IMG/VR virus record: IMGVR_UViG_3300031718_000001 | Location: 101,086 to 165,085 of that record | Reading direction: 5' to 3' (one strand) | Source: a virus | Length of the DNA: 64,000 nucleotides | Shown here: positions 8,732 through 48,190 of the stretch, piece after piece | How the letters are laid out: each line of letters starts with the position of its first letter | Position numbering within the stretch: the stretch's first letter is position 1 | The notes under the pieces: generated by a model | Seen by the model: only the letters and a program-made list of their open reading frames with translations | The model's database searches: none | Told to the model about the DNA's origin: nothing | Translations under genes and position numbers: made by a program

Positions 8732-8832
8732 CCCGGATCGGCGCCCTTTACCGCAAGCGCCAGGAAAAGTAAGTTCCGTCACCTTGCGTGTTATTGTTCC
8801 TTTTGGTCCGGCTAAGGGGCGTGAGGTGAGCG

Positions 8833-9180
8833 ATGGCAGTAGTGACGAGGCCGTACAAGGTAGATGACCTGGAAGTGCAGTCGGATCCGGCTGGTGAGGT
8901 CATCGCAGAGGCGACCATCCGGTTCGCCGTGAATGGCGCGGAATACGAGATCGACCTGAGCGACCAGAATGCCCGGACGTTCCTGGGGATTCTCAGGCCA
9001 TATCAGGAGGCGGGGCGGCGCATTAAAGGCGCTGGCAAGGCACGGCCGGCGGCAGACAGGGAACAGACCGCCCGCATCCGCGAGTGGGCGAAGAGCCAGC
9101 CGGATATCACGCTGAGTGACTTCGGCCGGCTGCCCGGCTGGGTCATCGTCAGGTACAACGAGGCCAATCCCGCAGCGTGA
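8833..9180 (+). CDS. lsr2: Lsr2-like nucleoid-associated protein
   Basis: 115 residues, close to the usual Lsr2 length. The N-terminal dimerisation domain is clear: EATIRFAVNGAEYEIDLS then NARTFLGILRPYQEAGRR. The C-terminal DNA-binding domain is also clear: QTARIREWAKSQPDITLSDFGRLP and a final Y-N-E/A. Lsr2 proteins coat AT-rich DNA in actinobacteria and silence foreign genes; phage copies may silence competitors or disturb the host Lsr2. The AT-hook-like Arg-Gly-Arg of the family reads Phe-Gly-Arg here, which could weaken or change DNA recognition. The gene sits among tail genes, 100 bp after the tube gene, with an AT-richer upstream gap that may hold its own promoter. Confidence 0.85.
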   Translation: MAVVTRPYKVDDLEVQSDPAGEVIAEATIRFAVNGAEYEIDLSDQNARTFLGILRPYQEAGRRIKGAGKARPAADREQTARIREWAKSQPDITLSDFGRLPGWVIVRYNEANPAA

Positions 9181-9237
9181 CCCGCGGGCTCCGCCCGGAA
9201 GATATGGAACCCCATGTCGATCCGGGAGGAGCCCGTC

Positions 9238-9549
9238 TTGACCACCCCAGTGCCCGCAGCGGTCACCGTCACTACCGATAAGGCCAACTACAACCCTGGT
9301 GACCCGATCCAGGTCACCGTCGAGTACACAGACCCGGCCAACCCCGGCACCGTGCTGACCGTCACTGCGTCGGTTACCACGCCCAGCGGCGCGGTCACCG
9401 GCACTACCCAGGTCACGGTCGGCGCCACCCCGGCGACGCCGTTCCCGGTGACCGTGACCGACTCGCTCGGCGACACCTTCACCCAGCAGTCCAACGACCC
9501 GGGCACCGCTGTGTTCAGCGGAACGGTCGGCACGCCGCCCGCCTCGTGA
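9238..9549 (+). CDS. Small Ig-like beta-sandwich virion protein
   Basis: 103 residues if started at TTG 9238, which has GGGAGGAG six bases upstream; ATG 9214 is in frame and gives 111 residues. The sequence is Thr/Val/Pro-rich, with an extension-type Ig pattern (TVTTDKANYNPGDPIQVTVEY). This resembles bacterial Ig-like or MG-type domains found as decorations on phage tails. It overlaps the next start by GTGA. A decoration role is inferred from composition and context. Confidence 0.6.
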   Translation: MTTPVPAAVTVTTDKANYNPGDPIQVTVEYTDPANPGTVLTVTASVTTPSGAVTGTTQVTVGATPATPFPVTVTDSLGDTFTQQSNDPGTAVFSGTVGTPPAS

Positions 9550-11074: not shown

Positions 11075-13477
11075 ATGACCATTCCGTTCCCGGAGGGGCG
11101 TCCGGACACCTCCGTCGGCAGCGATTCGGGTGCCCAGCTCACCCAGGGCTTCCAGGTCCTCAGCCGCCAGATGCAGACACTGGAGCGCGTCATCTCGACG
11201 CAGACGGCGATGATGGAGCGCACCCTCAACGCCAACCAGCGCTTCCAGATGGCGGGCAACCCGCAGCTCCGCCAGGACGTGATGGCGTCGGTCGCGGCCA
11301 CGGGCGGCTCGCTGCACGGCGCCAGGCTCACCCAGGTGTCGCCGATGGGCGCCATGTCCAGCATGGAGAACCTCCAGGCCTACGGTGCCCAGAAGCTCGG
11401 CCAGTGGATCGCCGGCACGCCGCTGTACGAGATGCCCACCGGTTCCCAGCAGGCAGGCGGTACGGGCGGTACCCCAGCAGGCACGCCGACCTCGACCGGC
11501 ACCGGCTGGCCAGGCGGAGGAGCCGGCGGCGGCACTCCCGTCGGCACGCCTACTTCGGCCGGGCGCGCACCCGGGGCGGGGGCGGGCGGGTCGGGCGGCG
11601 CAGGAGGAGGCCCGGTAAGCCCGACGGCACCGATGGGCCAGGGCGGGGGACCGCCAGGCGGGGGCGGCCGTTCCGGCCTGCCCGGGATGATCTGGGGCTC
11701 GGGCTCGCGCGGCGGGTCCTCGACCGGGATGGCGGCGCTCCAGCAGGTCGGCGCCCGGGTGGCCATGTCCGGCGGCACCCTCAGCGGCCTCACCAGCGCG
11801 CTGCACTCGATCCCCGGCGTCGGCCTGATCATGGATGCGGTCAGCGGCGGAGCCAACGCCTACCTCAACCAGCGCGAGGCGGGCCGGGTCTACCAGGAGG
11901 TCGAGGGCGGCTCGAACCTCTCGGCCCAGACCGAGCGGCTGCACGCCGCCGCCTACCAGGCGAGCATGTACGGCCTGATGCCGTCGGGGGCCGCGGCCCA
12001 GTCCTTCGGCGCGGTCACGGCCATGGGCTACAACCAGGCCGCCGCCAACGAGGGCGGCCAGATGCAGAACCGGCAGTCAGCCCTCAACTTCGTCTACCAC
12101 AACTACACCGGTACCGGGATGGACGTGAACCAGTCCCTCCAGGTCCTCCAGTCGGCCAGCTCGGATGCCAACGTCAACCTGAGCCAGCTCAGCTCCACCC
12201 TCAACTCGCTGTCGGCCGCCGCAGGCCAGGCCGGGACCAACGCCGAGACGGCCCGGAACCAGTTCAACAGCTACTTCCAGGCCGCGCTCGGCCAGGGCAT
12301 GAGCAACGGCGCCACCACGGTGGCCGGCGGGATCAGCTCGATGCAGGCGTCGATGGGCAAGGAGTTCTCCGGCGTCAACTTCTCCGGCGAGCTGTCCCAG
12401 TCCCGCCAGTACCTGCTGTCCGGGATGAGCGGCATGAGCCCTGCTCAGCTCCAGTACACCGCGCGCACTAACCCGGGCGCCTACAACCAGCTCCTGGCCG
12501 GCCAGAATATGCAGTTCCTGACCCAGGGCGGCCTGATGACGCCGCAGCTCACGTCCTCGCTCAACAAGGACATCGCTGCCGCCGGAGGCGGCACTGCTCT
12601 CATGTCCAACCCGACGCTGCGCGACCAGGTTGCCACCCAGTTCCTCAACCAGAACCAGGTCAGCGGCAACATCAACGAGAACCTGTGGGCGCAGGAGATC
12701 TCGGCCCTGACCGGCGTCAACATGAACGCCACCCAGGCATTCCAGTGGATCGTCAGCCAGTCGTCCGGCAACAACGAGGCCTCGCACAATGCCGGGCTGG
12801 GTGTCGGGTCCACCCCCGGCGCGAGCGTCTCCGCCAGCAAGAAGACGCCCAGCGGCACCCCGGTCGGCCAGTACGGCCTGGCCCAGCCCAAGACCAGTGT
12901 CGTCAGCCGGATCTCCTCGCTGTTCGAGCACGGCAATCTCTCCGGCGAGTCGTGGCAGAACGTGCTGAAGGGCGCCAATGCACCGTCCGCGAACGCCTAC
13001 CTGTCCCAGGAGTCCAAGAGCGGCCAGCGCAGCCCGGTCCTGGAAGGCCTGATCCAGAACACCTCCAGCAGCGACCAGGTGATGGTCAACACCTCCAGCG
13101 GCCAGCGGGTGATGTCCATGGCCGACGCGATGAAGTACTACCCGAACGAGCTGGCGGGCGGGAACGTCGAGTTCTACGGGTCCAAGGGCCAAGCGCTCGG
13201 CAGCACGAGTTCCCTCACCCACGGCTTGGTCAATGCTGCGGCGAACGTCACGTCCGAGGAGAAGCAGAAGGCAGGAGCCAACCTCGGCGTCACCGCGTCA
13301 GCCTGGGAGAAGTCCCACCCGAACACGACGGCCGCGGCCGGAGGAGGCCAGGCGGTCACGATCAACCTGTCGAGCGAGGCCGCCCAGCTCCTCAAGCTGC
13401 TGCCGTCCAACAACGACGTGGCCGCGGCCACCTCGACCGTCCCCGCGAACCCGGTGGTGTCTCAGGCGAGCCGCTGA
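11075..13477 (+). CDS. Tape measure protein
   Basis: 800 residues, the first large gene after the G/G-T chaperones, where the tape measure always lies. It begins with a helical region, then residues ~120-215 are a flexible Gly/Pro/Thr-rich linker. A long Ala/Ser/Gln-rich helical body follows with no globular enzyme motif. If the usual ~1.5 angstrom per residue holds, the tail would be about 120 nm. Its end overlaps the convergent SLOG gene by 16 bases. No peptidoglycan hydrolase motif is seen in it, unlike many tape measures. Confidence 0.75.
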   Translation: MTIPFPEGRPDTSVGSDSGAQLTQGFQVLSRQMQTLERVISTQTAMMERTLNANQRFQMAGNPQLRQDVMASVAATGGSLHGARLTQVSPMGAMSSMENLQAYGAQKLGQWIAGTPLYEMPTGSQQAGGTGGTPAGTPTSTGTGWPGGGAGGGTPVGTPTSAGRAPGAGAGGSGGAGGGPVSPTAPMGQGGGPPGGGGRSGLPGMIWGSGSRGGSSTGMAALQQVGARVAMSGGTLSGLTSALHSIPGVGLIMDAVSGGANAYLNQREAGRVYQEVEGGSNLSAQTERLHAAAYQASMYGLMPSGAAAQSFGAVTAMGYNQAAANEGGQMQNRQSALNFVYHNYTGTGMDVNQSLQVLQSASSDANVNLSQLSSTLNSLSAAAGQAGTNAETARNQFNSYFQAALGQGMSNGATTVAGGISSMQASMGKEFSGVNFSGELSQSRQYLLSGMSGMSPAQLQYTARTNPGAYNQLLAGQNMQFLTQGGLMTPQLTSSLNKDIAAAGGGTALMSNPTLRDQVATQFLNQNQVSGNINENLWAQEISALTGVNMNATQAFQWIVSQSSGNNEASHNAGLGVGSTPGASVSASKKTPSGTPVGQYGLAQPKTSVVSRISSLFEHGNLSGESWQNVLKGANAPSANAYLSQESKSGQRSPVLEGLIQNTSSSDQVMVNTSSGQRVMSMADAMKYYPNELAGGNVEFYGSKGQALGSTSSLTHGLVNAAANVTSEEKQKAGANLGVTASAWEKSHPNTTAAAGGGQAVTINLSSEAAQLLKLLPSNNDVAAATSTVPANPVVSQASR

Positions 13478-15194: not shown

Positions 15195-15809
15195 GTGGGA
15201 ACGGCGACGCTGGGCTACCCGGGCGGCCCGAACATCGCCTTCAGGATCGACCCCGAGATGATCACCTGGAACTGGCAGGTGCTGACCAATGTCACCGAGA
15301 CGATCGGCGGCCGGGTCATCCAGGTACTGGGGGCACGCCTGGAGGACCTCACTGTCCAGGGCTCGATGGGCCAGAACCACGCCGATCCGGCCAGCGGGGA
15401 GAGCTGGCAGATGGTCGAGGCCTTCGTCGCCACGATTACCCAGATCATGGAGGCTCAGTCGGCTGATAGCAACCAGCAGGCCCAGATGCACCCTCCGGCG
15501 GTCTTCAACTACCCGCCCAAAGGCTGGCGGTTCAATGTCTACGTCAAGTCGCTCACCGACCCCGACGGCCAGAACTCGGCGATCCTGCGGACGGGCAAGA
15601 TCAACCAGCGCTACTCCCTCTCCCTGTTCATCGTCCAGGACGGATCCTCGGCCCTGGTCAAGGCCGGCACCACCAACGGGGTGTTCAGCCAGAAGGCCTA
15701 CGACGCCGTGTCCGCGTTCATGGCCCGTATCTCCGACGGCGTGGGCTGGCACTTTACCCAGTACAACGGCCAGGTCACAGGCGTGATCGGCAATCCGGGA
15801 GGAAGCTGA
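15195..15809 (+). CDS. Tail/baseplate protein
   Basis: 204 residues from GTG 15195, which has GAGGAGG five bases upstream. The protein begins with a glycine-rich beta pattern (GTATLGYPGGPNIAFRID). It contains a helical stretch (SWQMVEAFVATITQIMEA) and ends in another beta segment. Its place after the tape measure suggests a distal-tail or baseplate-hub adaptor; the family was not recognised. It overlaps the next gene by one base (TGATG). Confidence 0.55.
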   Translation: MGTATLGYPGGPNIAFRIDPEMITWNWQVLTNVTETIGGRVIQVLGARLEDLTVQGSMGQNHADPASGESWQMVEAFVATITQIMEAQSADSNQQAQMHPPAVFNYPPKGWRFNVYVKSLTDPDGQNSAILRTGKINQRYSLSLFIVQDGSSALVKAGTTNGVFSQKAYDAVSAFMARISDGVGWHFTQYNGQVTGVIGNPGGS

Positions 15810-39868: not shown

Positions 39869-40495
39869 ATGGCCCATGCCCAGTCCCTGCCCCCGACGGA
39901 TACCCAGTCCGGCCTGCCGTTCTTTGAGCGCGTCTCCCACGGCTACTCGATGCACCAGGTGGATGACTACATCCGCCAGGCGCTGGCCCGGCTGCATCAG
40001 CAGGAGCAGGATCTCCTCGGCCATGCCGAGCAGCTCGCGACCGCCGCGGTGCACAGCCCGCAGGCCGAGCAGATGATTGACGAGCTGATGAAGCTGGCAC
40101 TCGATGAGATCCTCGGCCAGAAGGCAGCCGCCATCACCGAGGCCGAGCAGTTCCTGTCGTCCGCCCGCCAGGAGGCGGAGCAGATCATCGCCGCGGCCAG
40201 GGACGAGTCGGAGTCCATGGTCTCGGGCGCCCGCGAGCAGTCCGGTTCGCTGCTGGCCGATGCCCGCAGCAGTGCCCGGAAGATGCTTGACGATGCCGCG
40301 AGCCGGGTGGATGAGGCCGAGCAGCACATCGCCGCGCTGGCCAGGACCCACGAGGAGACGCTCTCCCGCCTGGATGAGATCAGCCGGGTGACTACCCGGC
40401 TGCTCGGCTCGGAGCGCGAGCGCGGTCTGCCCGGGTCGGTGTCCGGCGCTGTCCAGGCGAACGCTCCGGCCCAGCTCCTGGCAGCCCCCGAGTAA
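39869..40495 (+). CDS. DivIVA-like coiled-coil protein
   Basis: 208 residues from ATG 39869 with GGAGGT upstream. Residues 18-43 (PFFERVSHGYSMHQVDDY then IRQALARL) match the DivIVA/Wag31 N-terminal membrane-curvature motif, F-x-x-x-x-x-G-Y-x-x-x-x-V-D-x-(F/Y)-(L/I). Residues ~45-185 are a long charged coiled coil (AEQFLSSARQEAEQIIAAAR). In actinobacteria DivIVA marks growing poles and hyphal tips and recruits wall synthesis and transfer machinery. A phage copy next to an FtsK/Tra-like ATPase could target that ATPase, or phage DNA, to the pole, or hijack tip growth. Both are inference; the motif itself is visible. Confidence 0.7.
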   Translation: MAHAQSLPPTDTQSGLPFFERVSHGYSMHQVDDYIRQALARLHQQEQDLLGHAEQLATAAVHSPQAEQMIDELMKLALDEILGQKAAAITEAEQFLSSARQEAEQIIAAARDESESMVSGAREQSGSLLADARSSARKMLDDAASRVDEAEQHIAALARTHEETLSRLDEISRVTTRLLGSERERGLPGSVSGAVQANAPAQLLAAPE

Positions 40496-40497
40496 AA

Positions 40498-40546
40498 GGG
40501 TGGCGGGCCTCCCCCGTAGCCCACGGTGAAAGCCCGCCACCCAGCT
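40498..40546. terminator. Bidirectional hairpin between DivIVA-like and FtsK-like genes
   Basis: GGGTGGCGGGC (from 40499) pairs with GCCCGCCACCC across a ~23-base loop. It stands between convergent genes. No T tract; still a good candidate terminator. Confidence 0.65.
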
Positions 40547-40586
40547 CGCGGAAGCCTGCCAAGACTATCCCGGCTGGATCTCCATC

Positions 40587-42554
40587 CTAAGCCGCCTGGT
40601 CATCCTGCTTCGGCCCGTACTTCCACCGGCTGTAGTCCGGGTTGTGCACGATGCCCTGGGTCTCGTCGTCCTTCAGCCACCGCTGGACGGTCTCCCGCGC
40701 GACGGTGATCTTCTCGTCGGCCAGCCACTGGTGGAGCTGGGCGGGGGTCGCGCCCCGGGCACCGCGGCCGGCGAGCAGCTCGCGCATCCGCTTCCGTGCC
40801 GGATGCAGCTTGCTCTCCGGGTCCTCGAAGCCGGCGACGATCGCCTCGAACTGGCTGGTGTCCACGTCGGCTACCGCGGTCGCCGTCCGGCCGCTGCCGC
40901 TGAACATCCGGGCCAGTGACGGCTGCTGGGCGGCGCGCACCCAGCGCTCGGTGTAGTCGCTGCCCAGCGAGTCGGCGGTGAGCTTGTCCAGCCGCGGCCG
41001 GATCGACCCGACATCCAGTGTGGTCTGGTAGACAGGGCAGCCGGCAACGCAGCCTTCGTTCTCGTTCTCGCTGCACTCACCTTCCAGGTGGTCGTGCAGG
41101 AAGAACTTGCTCATCATGGAGGCCTTGCGGCCGACCGCGGCCACGCCGACGCCGGGAGTGCTGGCCATCACCGAGAGCTGCTTCTGGGCCATGTGCGCGT
41201 CCGGGATGACATACCGCAGGTCTCCCTCGGTAGCCGCGCCCAGGGCCAGCCGCAGCTTGCACAGGGACTTGAGGTTGCCGCTGCCGGCGAAGTCCACGGT
41301 GCCCCGCTGGGTCGCCCAGATCGAGGTGACCGCTTCCGACCGGGCGAGCTGGACGCCCTCCTCGGCCATGTGGATGAACTGCCGGTTGGTGACGGCATCC
41401 TCGCCGACATCCTTGCGGGTGCCGCGGTCGCCGCCGAACAGGACCGACATCTCATCGCACAGCAGGATGATCTGGGGCATCGAAGCGCTCGGCGTGATCT
41501 TGGATCCGCCGATGCCGGAGTTCATCCTGGTCTCGATCGACTTCTTGAAGGCCGTCATCATGAGGGCGGCCTCCTCGCGGGTGGTGGCTACCCAGTCGAG
41601 CGCGGGCGCCTCGGCGTTGCCCTCGCACCAGGCCTGGAGCCAGGCCTTGACCGTCCGGCCGCCCTTCATGTCGATGGCCCAGATCACGGTGTCCACGCAG
41701 TAGGAGAGCTGCGCCAGGATCACGTTGATCAGGTTGCTCTTGCCGGCGCCCGTGGTCCCGACGATGTACATGTGCAGCTCGCGCAGCGAGATCTTCAGGA
41801 CCGTGCCGTCCTCCTGGACGCCGATCGCGAAGGGCTCGTTGACCGTGCTGGCGTGCAGTTCCTTCTTCAGCGTCGGCGAGTCGATGAGTACTTCATGCTC
41901 GCGCAGCCGCAGGATGATGTCGCCGGAGTGCTCGCCGATCGAGAACTCCACCGCGCCGGGCTTGAGCCGCAGGATGACCGCGATCTGCCCGGCGCAGCCC
42001 TCCAGGGTGGAGAGGGTGATCTTGCCTGACCGGGGGAGCTGGAGCCGGAGCACCCGGCCGGAGCGCTCGCTGGCCAGGCCCAGGACCTGGACGCCGGAGC
42101 AGCCGACCTCGCGGAACATGTGCTCGAACTTGGTCATCTCCTCCTGGAGGTCCTCCTCCGGCGGAGCGCCCGCGGTGAGTTCCTTCGGGGCCGCGGGCTG
42201 GTCGGGGACCAGCCCGGACAGCGCGGCGTGGGCCGAGAGCGGGGCGCAGATGATCATCCCGATGATCCACGCGGTGACCACCCCGGAGTCCCACAGGCGG
42301 GTCATCTCGGCCCACAGGGTCCACAGGCCGAGGTAGAAGCCGAAAAAGGCAATGAATGACGAGATCGCGCCGCGGCCTGTGGACGCCCACACCGACAGGG
42401 CAATGACGATGCCGAGCATCATCTCCACGAGCGGCATAAGCCACAGCGGCAGGCCCGTGCCGGGGAGCACGGCCACGGCTGCGAGCGCGAGGGAACCCAG
42501 GAGGACGACCGTCTCCACGGCGTGCTCCCAGATCCTGCGCTTCTTGTGGCTCAA
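40587..42554 (-). CDS. Membrane-anchored FtsK/SpoIIIE (Tra)-type DNA translocase
   Basis: 655 residues from TTG 42554, which has GGGAGA upstream. The N-terminal ~115 residues hold about four hydrophobic helices. The motor domain has Walker A GTTGAGKS (residues 266-273), Walker B QIILLCDEM (361-369) and a Q-R-G-T sensor region (SIWATQRGT). The last ~70 residues (RMRELLAGRGARGATPAQLHQW, VARETVQRWLKDDE) look like a winged-helix module, comparable with the DNA-recognition gamma domain of FtsK and TraB. Such ATPases pump double-stranded DNA across membranes; Streptomyces plasmids use one for conjugation between mycelia. Divergent from the DUF2637 gene across an iteron-rich control region. Confidence 0.8.
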   Translation of the reverse strand: MSHKKRRIWEHAVETVVLLGSLALAAVAVLPGTGLPLWLMPLVEMMLGIVIALSVWASTGRGAISSFIAFFGFYLGLWTLWAEMTRLWDSGVVTAWIIGMIICAPLSAHAALSGLVPDQPAAPKELTAGAPPEEDLQEEMTKFEHMFREVGCSGVQVLGLASERSGRVLRLQLPRSGKITLSTLEGCAGQIAVILRLKPGAVEFSIGEHSGDIILRLREHEVLIDSPTLKKELHASTVNEPFAIGVQEDGTVLKISLRELHMYIVGTTGAGKSNLINVILAQLSYCVDTVIWAIDMKGGRTVKAWLQAWCEGNAEAPALDWVATTREEAALMMTAFKKSIETRMNSGIGGSKITPSASMPQIILLCDEMSVLFGGDRGTRKDVGEDAVTNRQFIHMAEEGVQLARSEAVTSIWATQRGTVDFAGSGNLKSLCKLRLALGAATEGDLRYVIPDAHMAQKQLSVMASTPGVGVAAVGRKASMMSKFFLHDHLEGECSENENEGCVAGCPVYQTTLDVGSIRPRLDKLTADSLGSDYTERWVRAAQQPSLARMFSGSGRTATAVADVDTSQFEAIVAGFEDPESKLHPARKRMRELLAGRGARGATPAQLHQWLADEKITVARETVQRWLKDDETQGIVHNPDYSRWKYGPKQDDQAA

Positions 42555-42688
42555 GTTCTCTCCCTGGACTGGTGTTCTTTAACATCAGGTGCTCTACGTA
42601 CAACCAGGAAAATATCAAGTTCATTGCTAAGCAGTCAGCAGTGGTACCCTCCGCTCACCCTCCGAGACCCCGGGAGGCGGCTCACACC

Positions 42689-42860
42689 TGTGATCCGGAT
42701 GTGTGACTGTGATCGGCGCTTAGCAAGGTTCCTTGCTGTGACGCAGGTGTGATCCGGTCACACCGGTACAAATCACACTTGTGACTTACCGCAGGTCAGA
42801 AGGTGTGACTGTGATCCGCGAGGCAGGAAACGCCCGGGAAACGGCACGCCGGGGCTGTGA
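42689..42860. repeat. TGTGA iteron cluster
   Basis: By hand count, TGTGA or its complement occurs 11 times in 172 bp (9 direct, 2 inverted). GTGTGACTGTGATC occurs twice (42701, 42803), and GGTGTGA-TCCGG-TCACACC (42747-42765) is a perfect inverted repeat. Such clusters are typical of plasmid origins, transfer regions or multi-site operators. Confidence 0.75.
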
Positions 42861-42871
42861 CCGGTAGACGA

Positions 42872-42891
42872 ATACAGCTTTTCTTGATAAT
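42872..42891 (+). promoter_or_regulatory. Conserved promoter/operator element, copy E
   Basis: ATACAGCTTTTCTTGATAAT, one mismatch from consensus. TAGACG-17-TAATCT can be read as -35 and -10 for the DUF2637 gene at 42929, leaving a 37-base leader with a GAGGAGG ribosome site. Confidence 0.7.
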
Positions 42892-42928
42892 CTGAATCAA
42901 CTCCGCACCTACTACCGAGGAGGCCAAG

Positions 42929-44056
42929 ATGACCGCCACGGAATCCGTCAAGGCAAACTGGCGTGCATACGCTGCGGCTATCCCCGTGGTCTTTGTCAAC
43001 ACGACCGCGTTTATCGGCCAGTTTGCTTTCCTCCAGGCCCACGTGCGCTGGATTATCCCGGGCATCGTCCTGATTGCCGTCTCGATCGAGAGCGTCGGCA
43101 TCTACTACGCCTTTCACGCCCACCTGGCGATGCTGGCCAACGACTCCGCGATGCGCCTCAAGCTGGCTGCCTACTCTTTCGCGGCCGTGATCGGCGTCAT
43201 GAACTACAGCCACTATGCGGCGCCGCACTGGCGGCCGACCGCGCTGGCCGTGATCATGCTCATCGCCTCGTCCATCTCGCCCTGGCTGTGGGGCGTGCAC
43301 TCACGCCGTGCCAGCCGCGACAAGCTGATGGCACGCAAGCTGGTCGATGAGCACGCTGTCCGGCTCGGCGCCAATCGGTGGACGTGGCACCCGGCACGCT
43401 CGATCCGCGTGACCCGCTGGTCTGCCTGGCACGGCGTCAACGACCCGGCACGCGCCATCGCCCACTTCGCTGACCGGTACGGCACGGCCGACACGGATCC
43501 CGGCGCGCTGGACCGGGCAGCGCTGCGCGTGCCAGCCGCTGTGCCAGCCAGCGAGCCAGAGGCTCTTCCGCTTGGCGCGGCCGTGGCACACGCCATCGAG
43601 AGCGTGCCAGTCGCTGCGGCGGCCATTTCCCCCGTGGCACAGGCCGTGCTCGGCGCGGGTGGCACGCTGGCGAACGGCCCGGCGGCCGTCGTTCCCGAGC
43701 CAGCCGCACAGGTGCTCTCCGCTGATGCCCACCTGGAGGCCGAGGCCAGCCTGTCCGGAGGCAAGCCCACGGCGGAGACCATCGCGAGCGTCGAGCTGTG
43801 GCTGATGGGCGTCGGGCTCGATGACCTGCCCTCTGTCCGCGCCGTGGCGCGGAAGCTGGGCGACCAGAACCAGCGTCGCCTGGCCAGGAAGCTGCTGGAT
43901 GCCCGCGTGGCAGCCGGTACCTCGTTCGTCTCGGCACCCCCGAGCGGACAGATCAATGCCAGCGGGAGCCGCACCCAGGTCAGTGACCAGGGCAACGGAC
44001 TGATCGCCTCCCCGCTGGCCTACCGCCCAGGAGGTGTAAATGGCGGAGACAACTGA
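42929..44056 (+). CDS. DUF2637-like four-TM membrane protein (plasmid spread type)
   Basis: 375 residues from ATG 42929 with GAGGAGG upstream. Four hydrophobic helices lie within the first ~120 residues (IPVVFVNTTAFIGQFAFL, IIPGIVLIAVSIESVGIYYAF, YSFAAVIGVMNYSHYA, ALAVIMLIASSISPWLWGV). A basic W-x-W-H-P segment and RWSAWHGVNDP follow, then a Pro/Ala-rich linker and a C-terminal helical domain (LDDLPSVRAVARKLGDQNQRR). This matches the DUF2637 type of membrane protein common on Streptomyces plasmids, where such proteins help plasmid spread. It overlaps the next gene by 17 bases. Its 3' half begins the TGGCAC repeat cluster. Confidence 0.7.
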   Translation: MTATESVKANWRAYAAAIPVVFVNTTAFIGQFAFLQAHVRWIIPGIVLIAVSIESVGIYYAFHAHLAMLANDSAMRLKLAAYSFAAVIGVMNYSHYAAPHWRPTALAVIMLIASSISPWLWGVHSRRASRDKLMARKLVDEHAVRLGANRWTWHPARSIRVTRWSAWHGVNDPARAIAHFADRYGTADTDPGALDRAALRVPAAVPASEPEALPLGAAVAHAIESVPVAAAAISPVAQAVLGAGGTLANGPAAVVPEPAAQVLSADAHLEAEASLSGGKPTAETIASVELWLMGVGLDDLPSVRAVARKLGDQNQRRLARKLLDARVAAGTSFVSAPPSGQINASGSRTQVSDQGNGLIASPLAYRPGGVNGGDN

Positions 44057-45455
44057 GGAGGCAGAGCTGCCGCCGCAGCCCGCTCATCAGGGAGAATACC
44101 GGCGGTCCCCCGCGTCGCGATGGCGGCGCCGGGGGACCGCCAGTGGCTTGCTGACGGCTGGCGGCAGTCTCATGCTTCACATGCTAGGAGGGCCTATGTC
44201 CCTCCTGATCGGCGGCGGCGTGGTGCTCGCCGGAGGAGGCGGGCTGGCCCTGTGGCACCTGCCGAGGATCCGTCACCACCTCAATGACGGCCGCCGGGAG
44301 AAGAAGACCCGCACCAGGACCCGCACCCGCGGGAGCCGGGGCGGGTCACGCGGTGCCAGGGCGGGCCGGGGCGGCCGGCTGTTCGGGGGAGCTGGCACGC
44401 GCCGGGGTGGCACGGCACGCTCTCCTCTGGGCGGCCGTGCCAGGGGTGGCACGGCACGCCGTGCCACCGGGCCGGGTCGCGGGCGTGCCAGCGGCACAGG
44501 AGCCCGGCGCGCTGGCGCGGCACGCGGGCCGCTGGCACGGCGCGCTGGCACGGGCCGTACCGGCACGAGGTCTGGCACAGCGCTCAGGCGGCGCGGTGGC
44601 GCGGCACGTTCCGGGGCTGGCACGGCACGCCGCCGGTCTGGTGGCACGGGAGCGGGGCGCCGCTTCGGACGTACCGCGCCGGCACGCGCCGGCACGCGGT
44701 TCCGTCCCGGCTCGCGCCGGGGCGGGGCATACGGCCGCCGTGGCACAGCGGGCAGCCGCTGGCGTCGCGGTCCAGGTGGCCGGCACGGCCGGACTCGTCC
44801 CGGCAGCCGGGCTCGTCCGGGCGGCCGGGGTACGCGGGCGTACGGACGCCGGTTCGGCATGTTCGGCCGTCGCCGGTCGATGCCGCCGCCCAGGATGCGC
44901 GCTCGCCGGACCAGGAGCGGCCGGGGTGCCGGCTCAGGCGGCGGTCGCCGTCTGGGCTCGGGCCGAAGGATGGGTCGCCGCCGGTTCCTGCTCTTCGGCA
45001 AGCGCAGGCCGGTACGTGCCAGGGTGCGGCGCCCGGCAGCTCATGGCCGGGGCCGGCACGCGGCTGGCGCGCGGTCGAGAATGGGCCGGTTCCGTGCCGC
45101 GCGCTGGCGCCTCCGCAGGCCTCCGGGCAAGTGGATCCCCCGGTTCCGGCGCACCAGGAGTGGCACCAAGCCGATCCGGATGAAGACCGACTTCCGTCGC
45201 GTCCGCGCGATGGGACGCCGGTACCGGCGTGCCAGGTCGCATCTGGGCCGCGCCAGGCGCAGGTTCCACGCTGCCCGGCGCAGGCGTGCCACCTGGCGTG
45301 TCACGCGCCGGTTCTTCCACCGGCTCACCCCCGCCGGCATGCGAGCCAGGCTGGCACGCCGGTTCGGGCACCGGGTGCGGACACGCCGCATGGGAAGGCG
45401 CATGGGCGGCGCGATACTAGGTTCCTTGCTATTCTGGAAATGGCACAGGAGGAGG
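43330..45455. repeat. TGGCAC/GTGCCA motif cluster embedded in coding DNA
   Basis: About 29 copies of TGGCAC or GTGCCA were counted by eye over ~2.1 kb, against one or two expected at this base composition. They run through two genes, in both orientations and more than one reading frame, so amino-acid composition alone does not explain them. They could be recognition sites for the adjacent FtsK/Tra-like ATPase. Confidence 0.65.
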
Positions 45456-46004
45456 CGGGCACCAGGTCGGCACGGCGCTGGCGCAAAGCCAGCCACGCCT
45501 GGCGTGAAGTACCGGATCCGGCCTCCGGGGCCAGACCCGCACGACAGCTCAATGCCTCGTCCGGCAGCGGCAGCGGGTCACCGGGAGCCGTTCCCGGGCC
45601 GGTTCGGTGTACCGACAGGGACCAGCTACCCTGCACGACCATCAGGAGGACACAGTTCCATGGCATCACCAATTCAGGATGCGGCCGAGGCCGTTACCGC
45701 GGGGTTCGCCGGGTTCCACCCGGAGAACGCCGCGCAGCTCCGCGGCATGTTCGACGACATGCCGGGGTTCTTCGAGGAGCTGGCCAGTGGCGTAGCCCGG
45801 CTGGCCGAGAAGTTCGACTCGGAACTCCCGGTTGACCGCAGGGTCGCCGAGGGCGTCCGGGAGATGGTCAGCGCGCTAGCCGGCCTGGGCGACCAGGCCA
45901 ATGAGCTGAACGGCCTGTTCAAGGCTGCCCACGAGACCGAGCTGAAGCGGCTCGACGAGCCGCGTCCGCAGGAGGAACTCTGGGACGTGCGCAATAACGA
46001 GTAG
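44040..46004 (+). CDS. Very Arg/Gly-rich membrane-anchored protein with a separate C-terminal helical domain
   Basis: 654 residues from ATG 44040 (AGGAGGTGTAA upstream). Residues ~36-75 are hydrophobic and Gly-rich (GLLTAGGSLMLHMLGG, SLLIGGGVVLAGGGGLALW) and probably span the membrane. Residues ~85-470 are almost entirely Arg, Gly, Ala, Thr and Ser, an extraordinarily basic region able to bind DNA without sequence specificity. Residues 541-654 form a normal acidic helical domain. AGGAGG at 45643-45648 before ATG 45660 suggests that this domain is also made alone. The protein lies between the DUF2637 and ArdC genes, so a role in handling DNA at the membrane is inferred. The homolog family was not recognised with certainty. 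Confidence 0.65.
   Translation: MAETTEEAELPPQPAHQGEYRRSPASRWRRRGTASGLLTAGGSLMLHMLGGPMSLLIGGGVVLAGGGGLALWHLPRIRHHLNDGRREKKTRTRTRTRGSRGGSRGARAGRGGRLFGGAGTRRGGTARSPLGGRARGGTARRATGPGRGRASGTGARRAGAARGPLARRAGTGRTGTRSGTALRRRGGAARSGAGTARRRSGGTGAGRRFGRTAPARAGTRFRPGSRRGGAYGRRGTAGSRWRRGPGGRHGRTRPGSRARPGGRGTRAYGRRFGMFGRRRSMPPPRMRARRTRSGRGAGSGGGRRLGSGRRMGRRRFLLFGKRRPVRARVRRPAAHGRGRHAAGARSRMGRFRAARWRLRRPPGKWIPRFRRTRSGTKPIRMKTDFRRVRAMGRRYRRARSHLGRARRRFHAARRRRATWRVTRRFFHRLTPAGMRARLARRFGHRVRTRRMGRRMGGAILGSLLFWKWHRRRRAPGRHGAGAKPATPGVKYRIRPPGPDPHDSSMPRPAAAAGHREPFPGRFGVPTGTSYPARPSGGHSSMASPIQDAAEAVTAGFAGFHPENAAQLRGMFDDMPGFFEELASGVARLAEKFDSELPVDRRVAEGVREMVSALAGLGDQANELNGLFKAAHETELKRLDEPRPQEELWDVRNNE
45660..46004 (+). 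CDS. Probable internal-start product of the 44040 gene (C-terminal domain alone)
   Basis: In-frame ATG 45660 has AGGAGG 11 bases upstream and gives 114 residues (MASPIQDAAEAVTAGFAGFH). The domain is helical and acidic, ending RPQEELWDVRNNE. I recall similar small proteins in Streptomyces plasmid transfer regions, but this was not checked. It could regulate or cap the full-length protein. Listed separately because the ribosome site is clear. Confidence 0.5.
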   Translation: MASPIQDAAEAVTAGFAGFHPENAAQLRGMFDDMPGFFEELASGVARLAEKFDSELPVDRRVAEGVREMVSALAGLGDQANELNGLFKAAHETELKRLDEPRPQEELWDVRNNE

Positions 46005-46016
46005 GCCCCCGGAACC

Positions 46017-46054
46017 AGCCCGGCCCCGCCTCCCCAGGGGCCGGGCTGTTTTCT
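46017..46054 (+). terminator. Rho-independent terminator
   Basis: AGCCCGGCCCC (46017-46027) and GGGGCCGGGCT (46037-46047) form an 11-bp stem, followed by GTTTTCT. It ends the transfer-like operon just before the ArdC promoter. Confidence 0.8.
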
Positions 46055-46061
46055 GACCAGG

Positions 46062-46090
46062 TTGCCCAATACAGCTTTTCTTGCTAAGAT
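46062..46090 (+). promoter_or_regulatory. Promoter with conserved element, copy F (ArdC gene)
   Basis: -35 TTGCCC at 46062-46067, 17-base spacer, -10 TAAGAT at 46085-46090. The element ATACAGCTTTTCTTGCTAAG covers 46069-46088. ATG 46097 lies six bases after the -10, so the mRNA is probably leaderless. Confidence 0.8.
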
Positions 46091-46096
46091 GAACTC

Positions 46097-47032
46097 ATGA
46101 CAAGGAATCGTAAGGACAGCAGGACCTCCTCGTTCGCCGCCGCCAAGGCAGCCCGGATCAGCGAGCTGACCGACCAGCTTTCCGCCGGCATCCAGGACCT
46201 TTCCACGACTGAGACGTGGCGGGACTACCTGGACTTCCAGGCCAAGTTCCCCCGCTATTCCTTCGGCAACGTGATGCTCATCCTGTGCCAGCTCCCGAGC
46301 GCCAGCATGGTGATGCCGTACGGCAAGCCGGGTAAGCCGGGCACCTGGATGAGCATCGGCCGGCACGCCAGGACCGGCGAGAAGGCCCTGTACATCCGCA
46401 AGCCGTCCATGCGGAAGATCGCCGCCGAGGACTCGGCCGACGGCCAGGAGCACATGGTCCGCAGCTTCGTCTGGGTTCCGGTCTTCGACGTATCGCAGAC
46501 CGACGGCGACCCCATCCCCGAGAACGGCGTGCAGCTCCTCGACGGCGACGACCCAGACGGCATCCTCGCCCTGGTCGTGAAGTTCATCGAGTCGCACGGC
46601 CTGGCCGTCGAGTTCGTCCCCGAGATCCCCGGCAGCAGCGCGAACGGCGACTGCGCCCCCGGAAGGGTCCGGGTCTGCACCTCCGGCCGCACCCCGCTCC
46701 AGCAGGTCAAGACGGCCATCCACGAGGCAGCCCACATGCTGCTGCACCTGGACTCGATCCTGTCCCGCGGGCTCGAGGAGCTCGAAGCCGAGTCGGTCGC
46801 CTATGTGGTCGCCCAGTACCTCGGCCTCCAGACCAGCGAGTACAGCTTCGGCTACGTGCTCGGCTGGGCCGGCGGCGCTGATCGCGCCGGCAAGGCGATC
46901 AGGGAGTCCGGCAACCGGATCCAGGACGCCGCCAAGAAAATCCTCACCGGGCTCGGCGCGATCGAGGCTGCCGGGTACGACGAGCCGGCCGCCGGCTCCG
47001 CGCCCGTCCTCGAAGAGGCTGTGGCCGCATGA
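46097..47032 (+). CDS. ardC: ArdC-type antirestriction protein
   Basis: 311 residues from ATG 46097. The N-terminal domain (W-x-x-Y-L with FPRYSFGNVMLILCQLPSAS, then PGTWMSIGRHARTGEKALYI) is the ssDNA-binding DUF1738 domain of ArdC. The C-terminal zincin has HEAAH (His209, Glu210, His213) and a later E-A-E-S-V-A-Y (Glu232) as third ligand. ArdC proteins on conjugative plasmids protect incoming DNA from restriction. Here the gene follows a transfer-like operon but has its own promoter without a leader, suited to immediate expression after entry. It overlaps the next gene by ATGA. Confidence 0.8.
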   Translation: MTRNRKDSRTSSFAAAKAARISELTDQLSAGIQDLSTTETWRDYLDFQAKFPRYSFGNVMLILCQLPSASMVMPYGKPGKPGTWMSIGRHARTGEKALYIRKPSMRKIAAEDSADGQEHMVRSFVWVPVFDVSQTDGDPIPENGVQLLDGDDPDGILALVVKFIESHGLAVEFVPEIPGSSANGDCAPGRVRVCTSGRTPLQQVKTAIHEAAHMLLHLDSILSRGLEELEAESVAYVVAQYLGLQTSEYSFGYVLGWAGGADRAGKAIRESGNRIQDAAKKILTGLGAIEAAGYDEPAAGSAPVLEEAVAA

Positions 47033-47451
47033 CTCTCCTGCTCGCCGAGCCCCAGGCAGCGGTCCTGGGGCTCGACCCCTCCCAGGTCGATGAGCTGCCC
47101 CTCGGCACCGTCTACCTGCTCCACCTGAACACCCCGGTACGGGCCTACACCAGCGACTACACCTGGAGCCACTACATCGGCCACGCCGACCAGGGGCGCC
47201 TTGTCATCCGCCTCGGCCAGCACGAGAAGGGCCACGGCGCCAGGTTCCTCCGCAAGGCCCTGGCCCAGGGCTGCACCTGGCACCTGGCCCGGGTGTGGAC
47301 CGGCGCCGACTACAAGCGCGAGCGCCAGATCAAGAAGCAGGGCGGCGCCAGCCGGTTCTGCCCTTCGTGCGGCATCATCACCGCGGCCGAGCGCCAGGAG
47401 TTCCGTGACCTGCTCGGCCGCTACATCACACCACCTGCGAGGACCCAGTGA
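47029..47451 (+). CDS. GIY-YIG-like nuclease
   Basis: 140 residues from ATG 47029. LGTVYLLHLNTP and HYIGHADQG stand for the GIY and YIG motifs; RLGQHEKGHGARFLR and KRERQIKKQGG follow, and it ends in a CPSC zinc-type pair. This layout matches small GIY-YIG proteins common in actinobacteria. They are metal-dependent endonucleases, and this one may act in DNA repair or in attacking competing DNA. Overlaps the ArdC stop by four bases and the next start by GTGA. Confidence 0.65.
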   Translation: MTLLLAEPQAAVLGLDPSQVDELPLGTVYLLHLNTPVRAYTSDYTWSHYIGHADQGRLVIRLGQHEKGHGARFLRKALAQGCTWHLARVWTGADYKRERQIKKQGGASRFCPSCGIITAAERQEFRDLLGRYITPPARTQ

Positions 47452-47867
47452 ACAAGGACGCATATACGAAAATCGAGCAGGCCAACGGCCTGATCGGCGA
47501 GGTCCACCAGCTCCTCAAGGAGTACCGCGACGGCCTCGTAGCCGACGGCGTGGACGACGGCCGCCTGGCCCAGGCCCAGGAAGCGCTCGACTCGGTGCAC
47601 AGCACCTGGTCGGCCATGCCCTTGACCCGTTCCCTGGTCTGGAAGATCGCAGAGCAGCACGGCAAGCCGCCTGCGATCGAGACCGTTCAGGTCGAGGTGA
47701 CCATCGAGCCCCGGTTCCGCGACGGCTGCTACACCGAGAACACGCTCCTGGAGATCCCGGCAGGCCTGAGCGGCCAGGCCCGGGAGGACGCCATTATCGA
47801 TGCCGCCGCCAGCGAGGTCGTGAACGAGCAGGTGCCATGGGGCGCCCAGGAAGTCGAGGAGTCATGA
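47448..47867 (+). CDS. Hypothetical early protein
   Basis: 139 residues from GTG 47448 (overlapping the previous TGA). The N-terminal half is helical (YTKIEQANGLIGEVHQLLKEY) and the C-terminal half mixed (VQVEVTIEPRFRDGC). It overlaps the next start by ATGA, so the four genes from 46097 to 48190 form one operon. Function unknown. Confidence 0.5.
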   Translation: MNKDAYTKIEQANGLIGEVHQLLKEYRDGLVADGVDDGRLAQAQEALDSVHSTWSAMPLTRSLVWKIAEQHGKPPAIETVQVEVTIEPRFRDGCYTENTLLEIPAGLSGQAREDAIIDAAASEVVNEQVPWGAQEVEES

Positions 47868-48190
47868 GGGCGGCGTTCGTCCCGGAGACCGGCCAGCGTG
47901 TCCGCGTGCGGCGCTGGGAGGTGCCGTGCCCGGAACTGGAGGGCGGCCCCCAGCGCACGCTGGCCGTCGAGCTGACTGGTACCGTGCAGCGCGTTGACGA
48001 CGGCCGGAGCGCCCGGCCGATGCACGATCCCGTCATCTACCTGGACATCGCCACCATGGATGTCACCTTTGACGCGCTCGGCGACGAGCCGGGCGATAAC
48101 TGGATGATCTGCCTGGGTGATGTCTTCCTGGGCCAGGAGCCGGATCACGGCTACTCCTGGACGTTCCAGACCGAGGTGGAAACGCTGTGA
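47864..48190 (+). CDS. Hypothetical early protein, beta-rich
   Basis: 108 residues from ATG 47864 (overlap ATGA); the in-frame upstream sequence is a shadow. The pattern (RRWEVPCPELEGG, VELTGTVQRVDD, DPVIYLDIATMDVTF) suggests a small beta-barrel. It overlaps the next gene by GTGA. Function unknown. Confidence 0.5.
   Translation: MRAAFVPETGQRVRVRRWEVPCPELEGGPQRTLAVELTGTVQRVDDGRSARPMHDPVIYLDIATMDVTFDALGDEPGDNWMICLGDVFLGQEPDHGYSWTFQTEVETL

Follow-up and report, generated by a model that had tools for sequence, protein, structure and literature searches.

The window analysed here is a 64,000-nucleotide stretch of DNA from a large soil phage, bases 101086-165085 of a 165,085-bp actinophage record from IMG/VR, whose records may be fragments. 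The terminase of this phage shares 31-34% identity with its counterparts in Mycobacterium, Gordonia, and Rhodococcus phages, whose genomes are 135-158 kb long. Genes in unannotated contigs were found with a simple purpose-written caller, which overlooks some genes of atypical codon usage (B in several phages; Galactica gene 98). Positions below are those of the window unless the record or another contig is named.

Three genes make up the module of interest. An FtsK/TraB-like motor of 655 residues is encoded on the minus strand (40587-42554), divergently from gene A. Its AF2 model is FtsK-type, with N-terminal helices and a C-terminal winged helix, and Foldseek matches it to FtsK (2e-14) and TcpA (6e-13), in agreement with the original prediction of an adjoining FtsK-type ATPase that ends in such a domain. 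Gene A (42929-44056, plus strand) encodes a membrane-like protein of 375 residues, a distant relative of DUF2637: one of seven A homologues matches PF10935 (DUF2637) at 1.4e-5, and the window protein itself is unmatched. The AF2 model of A, whose overall confidence is low, contains four long N-terminal helices, a low-confidence linker (residues 185-276), and a confident, small helical C-terminal domain (about 280-333), for which a Foldseek search returned no structural match. Gene B (44040-46004, plus strand) overlaps A and encodes 654 residues with an N-terminal hydrophobic stretch, an Arg/Gly-rich middle, and a conserved C-terminal domain of ~115 residues that is common to relatives; Pfam and PHROG searches with B gave no match. 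The C-terminal domain of B (45660-46004) also matches stretches of two very large proteins (record 11200-11493 and 15281-15532), and by eye a protein at L006:6945-7700 closes with a similar ending (..RLDRPRPAEETWDV). For the gene 3' of B (46097-47032), the N-terminal domain of the anti-restriction protein ArdC is a weak match that falls short of the cut-off (0.038).

The region between the motor gene and A holds a second, conventional array, made of TGTGAY/RTCACA repeats (42678-42820). It occupies the same place in all eight phages that share the module and may be an operator or a clt; the element TTTTCTTGATA accompanies it just upstream of A. A promoter-like element, AATACAGCTTTTCTTGATAA, lies upstream of A on the plus strand (42871-42890). 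Similar 20-bp elements, near AATACAGCTTTTCTTGCTAA, are present about 30 times in the record, most of them 30-60 bp ahead of a gene (in the window at 42871, 46068, 48648, 49839, and 15110), and this recurring sequence is likely a phage promoter. GAYCCGGA is found 21 times in the window (8.7 expected), with one copy in the motor/A intergenic region (42692-42699). In the related phage G001, the word GACCCGGA, which is the TRS of plasmid pSVH1, occurs 9 times in 18 kb near the motor gene (1.6 expected), two of these copies being in the intergenic array (L014:7927-7946). An Rfam search of 40000-48000 returned no family.

TGGCAC islands within coding DNA

The window contains 66 copies of TGGCAC or its complement GTGCCA, where dinucleotide shuffles average 48 and reach at most 64, and 30 of these sites start between 43308 and 45441 (span to 45446), where 1.27 would be expected from the remainder of the window. 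The resulting density is ~23 times that of the remainder. The sites lie in both orientations, in all reading frames, and in two genes, 10 in A and 20 in B. The original prediction had described about 29 copies in ~2.1 kb, a ~20-fold excess, with just this spread over orientations, frames, and genes; the cluster stands, although its start had been placed about 20 bp late, at 43330 in a span ending at 45455.

The excess is not a product of the encoded proteins. When codons were shuffled with protein and codon usage kept, 1000 shuffles gave an average of 3.3 sites in A (maximum 8) and 3.95 in B (maximum 10), so that counts similar to those observed, named beforehand as what would speak against selection on the DNA, were never reached. 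Shuffles confined to 40-codon blocks also fall short. At the 2-kb scale TGGCAC clusters more strongly than any other 6-mer in the 165-kb record, and in a record-wide window scan against a codon-shuffled null, the kind of count proposed earlier, the 1e-5 level is passed by TGGCAC, in B and in one second gene, and otherwise only by the overlapping GGCACG. The second strongest short-range word cluster of the record is AGTGCA/TGCACT, with 14 copies in about 500 bp (L009:5593-6093; record 85593).

The sites form islands. The island in gene A (43308-43665, A residues about 127-246) holds 10 sites, 6 sense and 4 antisense, in 358 bp and uses 10 of the 14 places that the protein permits; that in gene B (44253-45446) holds 20, of which 13 are sense and 7 antisense. 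Three further islands lie elsewhere in the record, in the whiB region, in a repeat gene, and in a large gene of 1554 codons (record 44228-44689, 66273-66675, and 69497-70251, with 8, 11, and 14 sites). Within islands the base 3' of TGGCAC is G in 71% of sites, A in 22%, and never T, and outside islands it is unrestricted; the full word in this phage is TGGCACR and not TGGCACY. The clustering noted for the hexamer is real, but both this extension and the islands outside the window had been missed. TGGCACR is non-palindromic. The island sites (42 sense, 21 antisense) are variably spaced, no fixed pairing or spacing is seen, and helical phasing is weak and inconsistent.

A direct measure of codon choice is the fraction of protein-permitted places at which the word is actually used. 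For TGGCAC this is 63/96 in islands and 69/1078 elsewhere; since island edges were drawn around matches, island fractions are somewhat inflated, and whole-gene fractions are lower (A 10/18, B 20/38, the large gene 18/48, gene W, which adjoins whiB, 4/5, and the repeat gene 11/38). Control words are used similarly inside and outside islands: CGGCAC at 23/113 and 253/1498, TGGCCC at 7/58 and 151/1120, and TGGCGC at 15/83 and 211/1403. Each of four codon contexts is enriched for TGGCAC (p from 4e-8 to 3e-19): Val-Pro (8/13 in islands versus 4/190 elsewhere), (Arg/Gly/Ser/Cys)-Ala-x (11/26 versus 13/334), (Leu/Met/Val)-Ala-x (11/12 versus 8/233), and x-Gly-Thr (25/37 versus 12/277). The non-repetitive islands by themselves use 32 of 44 permitted places.

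The word in related phages and plasmids

In seven of the eight phages that share the motor/A/B module (G000, which is the present record, and G017, G001, G004, G007, G008, and L138), TGGC(A/G)CG is a leading word of gene A, and the A homologues that carry it are 40-50% identical. A ranking of all words within A puts TGGCAC first among 6-mers in G000; among 7-mers, TGGCACG comes first in G017 and L138, and TGGCGCG comes first in G001, G004, and G007 and shares first place in G008. Both forms, TGGCACG and TGGCGCG, are used in G007 and in G008. The word of the group is therefore TGGC(A/G)CG, and the idea that the one-base divergence acts as a specificity switch was dropped. It was likewise rejected that an Asn/Asp switch in the A C-terminal domain decides between TGGCAC and TGGCGC, as L138 has Asp together with TGGCAC. 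Among 86 scored genes of 280-520 codons from five phages, A of G007, G004, and G001 ranks first to third.

Island positions other than A are conserved in part. Of 196 genes, 83 have homologues in G001 (161,740 bp); the gene A of G001 contains 13 copies of TGGCGCG (3.5 expected), and for TGGYGCG its large, whiB, and repeat genes come next in rank with low scores (z 3.0, 2.1, and 2.1). In gene W, TGGCAC is the top 6-mer in G000, G007, and G017, and G007 uses all 7 of its 7 permitted TGGCACG places. The large gene carries TGGCAC in G000 and G019 and TGGCGC in G004. In G001 and G004, sites are also present in the non-coding DNA upstream of A. One protein (L009:20-751, record 80020-80751; G001 44414-45439) is 99% identical between G000 and G001, where most others are 40-80% identical, and may reflect recent exchange or strong constraint.

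G006 (166 kb, portal 77%) lacks A, B, and the motor by tblastn and has no islands, and G002 and G003, related in gene A only, have no TGGCACR islands. G005 has the whole module, including the TGTGAY array, and no TGGCRCG; the linker of its gene A (L092:7654-8769) contains repeats of GCACCCCCTGTGCA-like DNA, either a word of its own or only a peptide repeat. In several relatives the A linker contains many Ala-Pro or Val-Pro repeats.

The original prediction had proposed that the word may drive the odd Arg/Gly/Ala/Thr composition of the protein that starts at 44040. The eight B homologues refute this: Arg makes up 16-26% and Gly 16-20% of their Arg/Gly-rich part. Since all eight keep the composition and only two, G000 (20/38) and G017 (7/22), use the word often, the word does not drive it.

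Other coding-embedded words are found beside FtsK genes in a plasmid and, more weakly, in cultured Streptomyces phages. In Kitasatospora fiedleri plasmid 3, an A-like gene next to an FtsK gene contains 15 copies of CGGTTCG versus 2.3 expected, in all six codon contexts; 20 of the 33 copies on the plasmid lie in 8818-9533, and six of these 20 are non-coding, past the stop codon. The Streptomyces phages Galactica and Keanu share the A-B-FtsK gene order and over-use GGTCCGG in B (13 versus 2.4 and 9 versus 1.9), a word that is common throughout Galactica (61/301 permitted places). More distant A-like/DUF2637 genes have clustered words of their own: GGTGACA in G003 (9 versus 0.8), TGGCGGG in L146 (7/12 versus 1/31), and GCGGGCA in L152 from Micromonospora (12/34 versus 4/45). 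In a survey of 59 DUF2637 genes and 52 neighbours, the median top-word z was 2.8 versus 2.0, and z reached at least 4 in 9/59 versus 0/52, a modest excess that is confounded by length (287 versus 220 residues). A plasmid of Streptomyces sp. YIM 121038 (L220:2350-6185) has whiB close to a DUF2637 gene, recalling the A and whiB-region islands of the phage, and this gene over-uses CGGAACG (10 versus 2.3). It is tentatively suggested that FtsK/DUF2637 modules of actinobacterial phages and plasmids commonly hold their own docking array in the synonymous codons of their own genes, the word being system-specific (TGGCRCG, CGGTTCG, GGTGACA, GCGGGCA, and others); these would form a class of coding-embedded centromere or transfer loci.

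Comparison with known systems and possible readers of the word

FtsK of bacterial chromosomes reads KOPS, a short asymmetric word in coding DNA that is polar and spread over the chromosome. The phage resembles this system in its FtsK-fold motor and in a short asymmetric word within genes; it differs in that its sites are clustered and of mixed orientation, without strand polarity. The Hiyaavirus phages Galactica and Keanu share the order of A-like, B-like, and FtsK genes, a word-rich B gene, and, by inspection of the Keanu protein, the same type of B C-terminal domain, but their word is another one and is found in B instead of A, and elsewhere in Galactica it is frequent as well. The TraB proteins of Streptomyces conjugative plasmids act at clt, whose TRS in pSVH1 is GACCCGGA (PMC5133688). 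Here the likeness includes an FtsK-type membrane motor with a C-terminal winged helix and clusters of a short non-palindromic word; the phage word is TGGCACR, however, and not the pSVH1 TRS, the only one compared, and its sites lie within genes, in both orientations, at several loci, and on a phage. In pIJ101 and related Streptomyces plasmids, the sps sites that SpdA2 binds lie within the coding region of SpdA2 itself, next to TraB; each is a 12-bp palindrome, there are 1-3 copies, and the system affects segregational stability (PMC4170104). Both systems place sites within the coding region of a module gene on elements with an FtsK-like TraB, and DNA binding by A is a prediction. Unlike sps, the phage word is a 7-bp non-palindrome with 10-30 copies at several loci, and A resembles a membrane protein, which SpdA2 does not. 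A search of openly licensed papers found no report of such arrays in phages.

Selection on double-stranded DNA inside coding DNA is well supported, because use of the word is independent of orientation and codon context, is conserved in place, and sometimes crosses into non-coding DNA. Computation establishes a conserved word, several conserved island positions, orientation independence, and an association with the module, for which the single module-free genome, G006, is thin evidence. An RNA-level element is disfavoured by the presence of both orientations. It is very improbable that the DNA has no function and that local codon bias, together with repeat duplication in low-complexity protein linkers, made the clusters. 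Peptide repeats do occur in the A linkers of relatives, in the repeat gene at 66 kb, and in G005, and DUF2637 genes in general show only the modest excess; yet the non-repetitive islands fill most of their permitted places, enrichment extends over several unrelated codon contexts and over both strands, the excess survives block shuffling with control words unchanged, and sites continue past coding DNA.

The best reading, to which a probability of roughly 0.55 is given, is that the TGGCAC array is a clt- or centromere-like docking array, written in synonymous codons, for a membrane DNA-handling module. It draws on the association with the module, on the intragenic sps (PMC4170104), and on TraB and its TRS (PMC5133688). 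The islands would be arrays of protein-binding sites of about 7 bp, non-palindromic and created through synonymous codon choice, that dock phage DNA to a membrane-bound module of the FtsK/TraB-like motor, membrane protein A, and the Arg-rich protein B. Like a clt or a centromere locus, the array would load or tether DNA destined for movement or segregation, perhaps across hyphal septa, as the resemblance to Tra/Spd systems alone would suggest. The reader of the word may be the C-terminal domain of A, the motor winged helix, or another protein. A is the most likely candidate by a small margin, since every TGGCRCG phage has the array in A and since the intergenic TGTGAY array may be a conventional clt or operator. 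Against docking stand G005, with its whole module and no TGGCRCG, the repetitive A linkers of relatives, where part of the signal could come from local duplication, and the TGTGAY array, which may be the real site of the motor.

Two other kinds of reader were weighed. As originally proposed, the motor might itself recognise the word with the winged helix at its C-terminus, in the manner of TraB at TRS or FtsK at KOPS: the motor gene adjoins the array, the model ends in the appropriate domain, the word resembles TRS and KOPS in being short and non-palindromic, and motors accompany the arrays of the plasmid and the Streptomyces phages. This is nonetheless unlikely, given a word that differs from GACCCGGA, mixed orientations and variable spacing that do not resemble KOPS polarity, and a rival motor site in the TGTGAY array, which all eight phages have, G005 included. 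A loading or docking array, as originally proposed, stands as the best reading, without KOPS-type polarity and with a word other than the pSVH1 TRS; as its reader, membrane protein A is no worse a candidate than the motor. It is also rather improbable that an unrelated phage or host protein (nucleoid-type, a regulator, or a partition protein) binds the sites for transcription control or DNA organisation, the motor being near by coincidence. Such a protein would suit the islands that lie at a distance from the module, in whiB-region, repeat, and structural-type genes, but the densest and most conserved island sits in the module gene A, and the module-free G006 has none. Host AdpA and sigma-54 sites were rejected as an identity for the word, as TGGCSNGWWY and TGGCAC-N4-6-TTGC have 0 matches in the islands.

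If docking is correct, the array would be a cis-acting phage/plasmid DNA element hidden in synonymous codons, of a kind that ordinary annotation overlooks, and the comparison of realised with permitted sites offers a simple way to find such coding-embedded elements. It would also provide a concrete candidate substrate for the FtsK-like genes, as yet without a known function, of many Streptomyces phages. Finally, a module that moved DNA from one hyphal compartment to another would represent a new route of phage spread within the mycelium.
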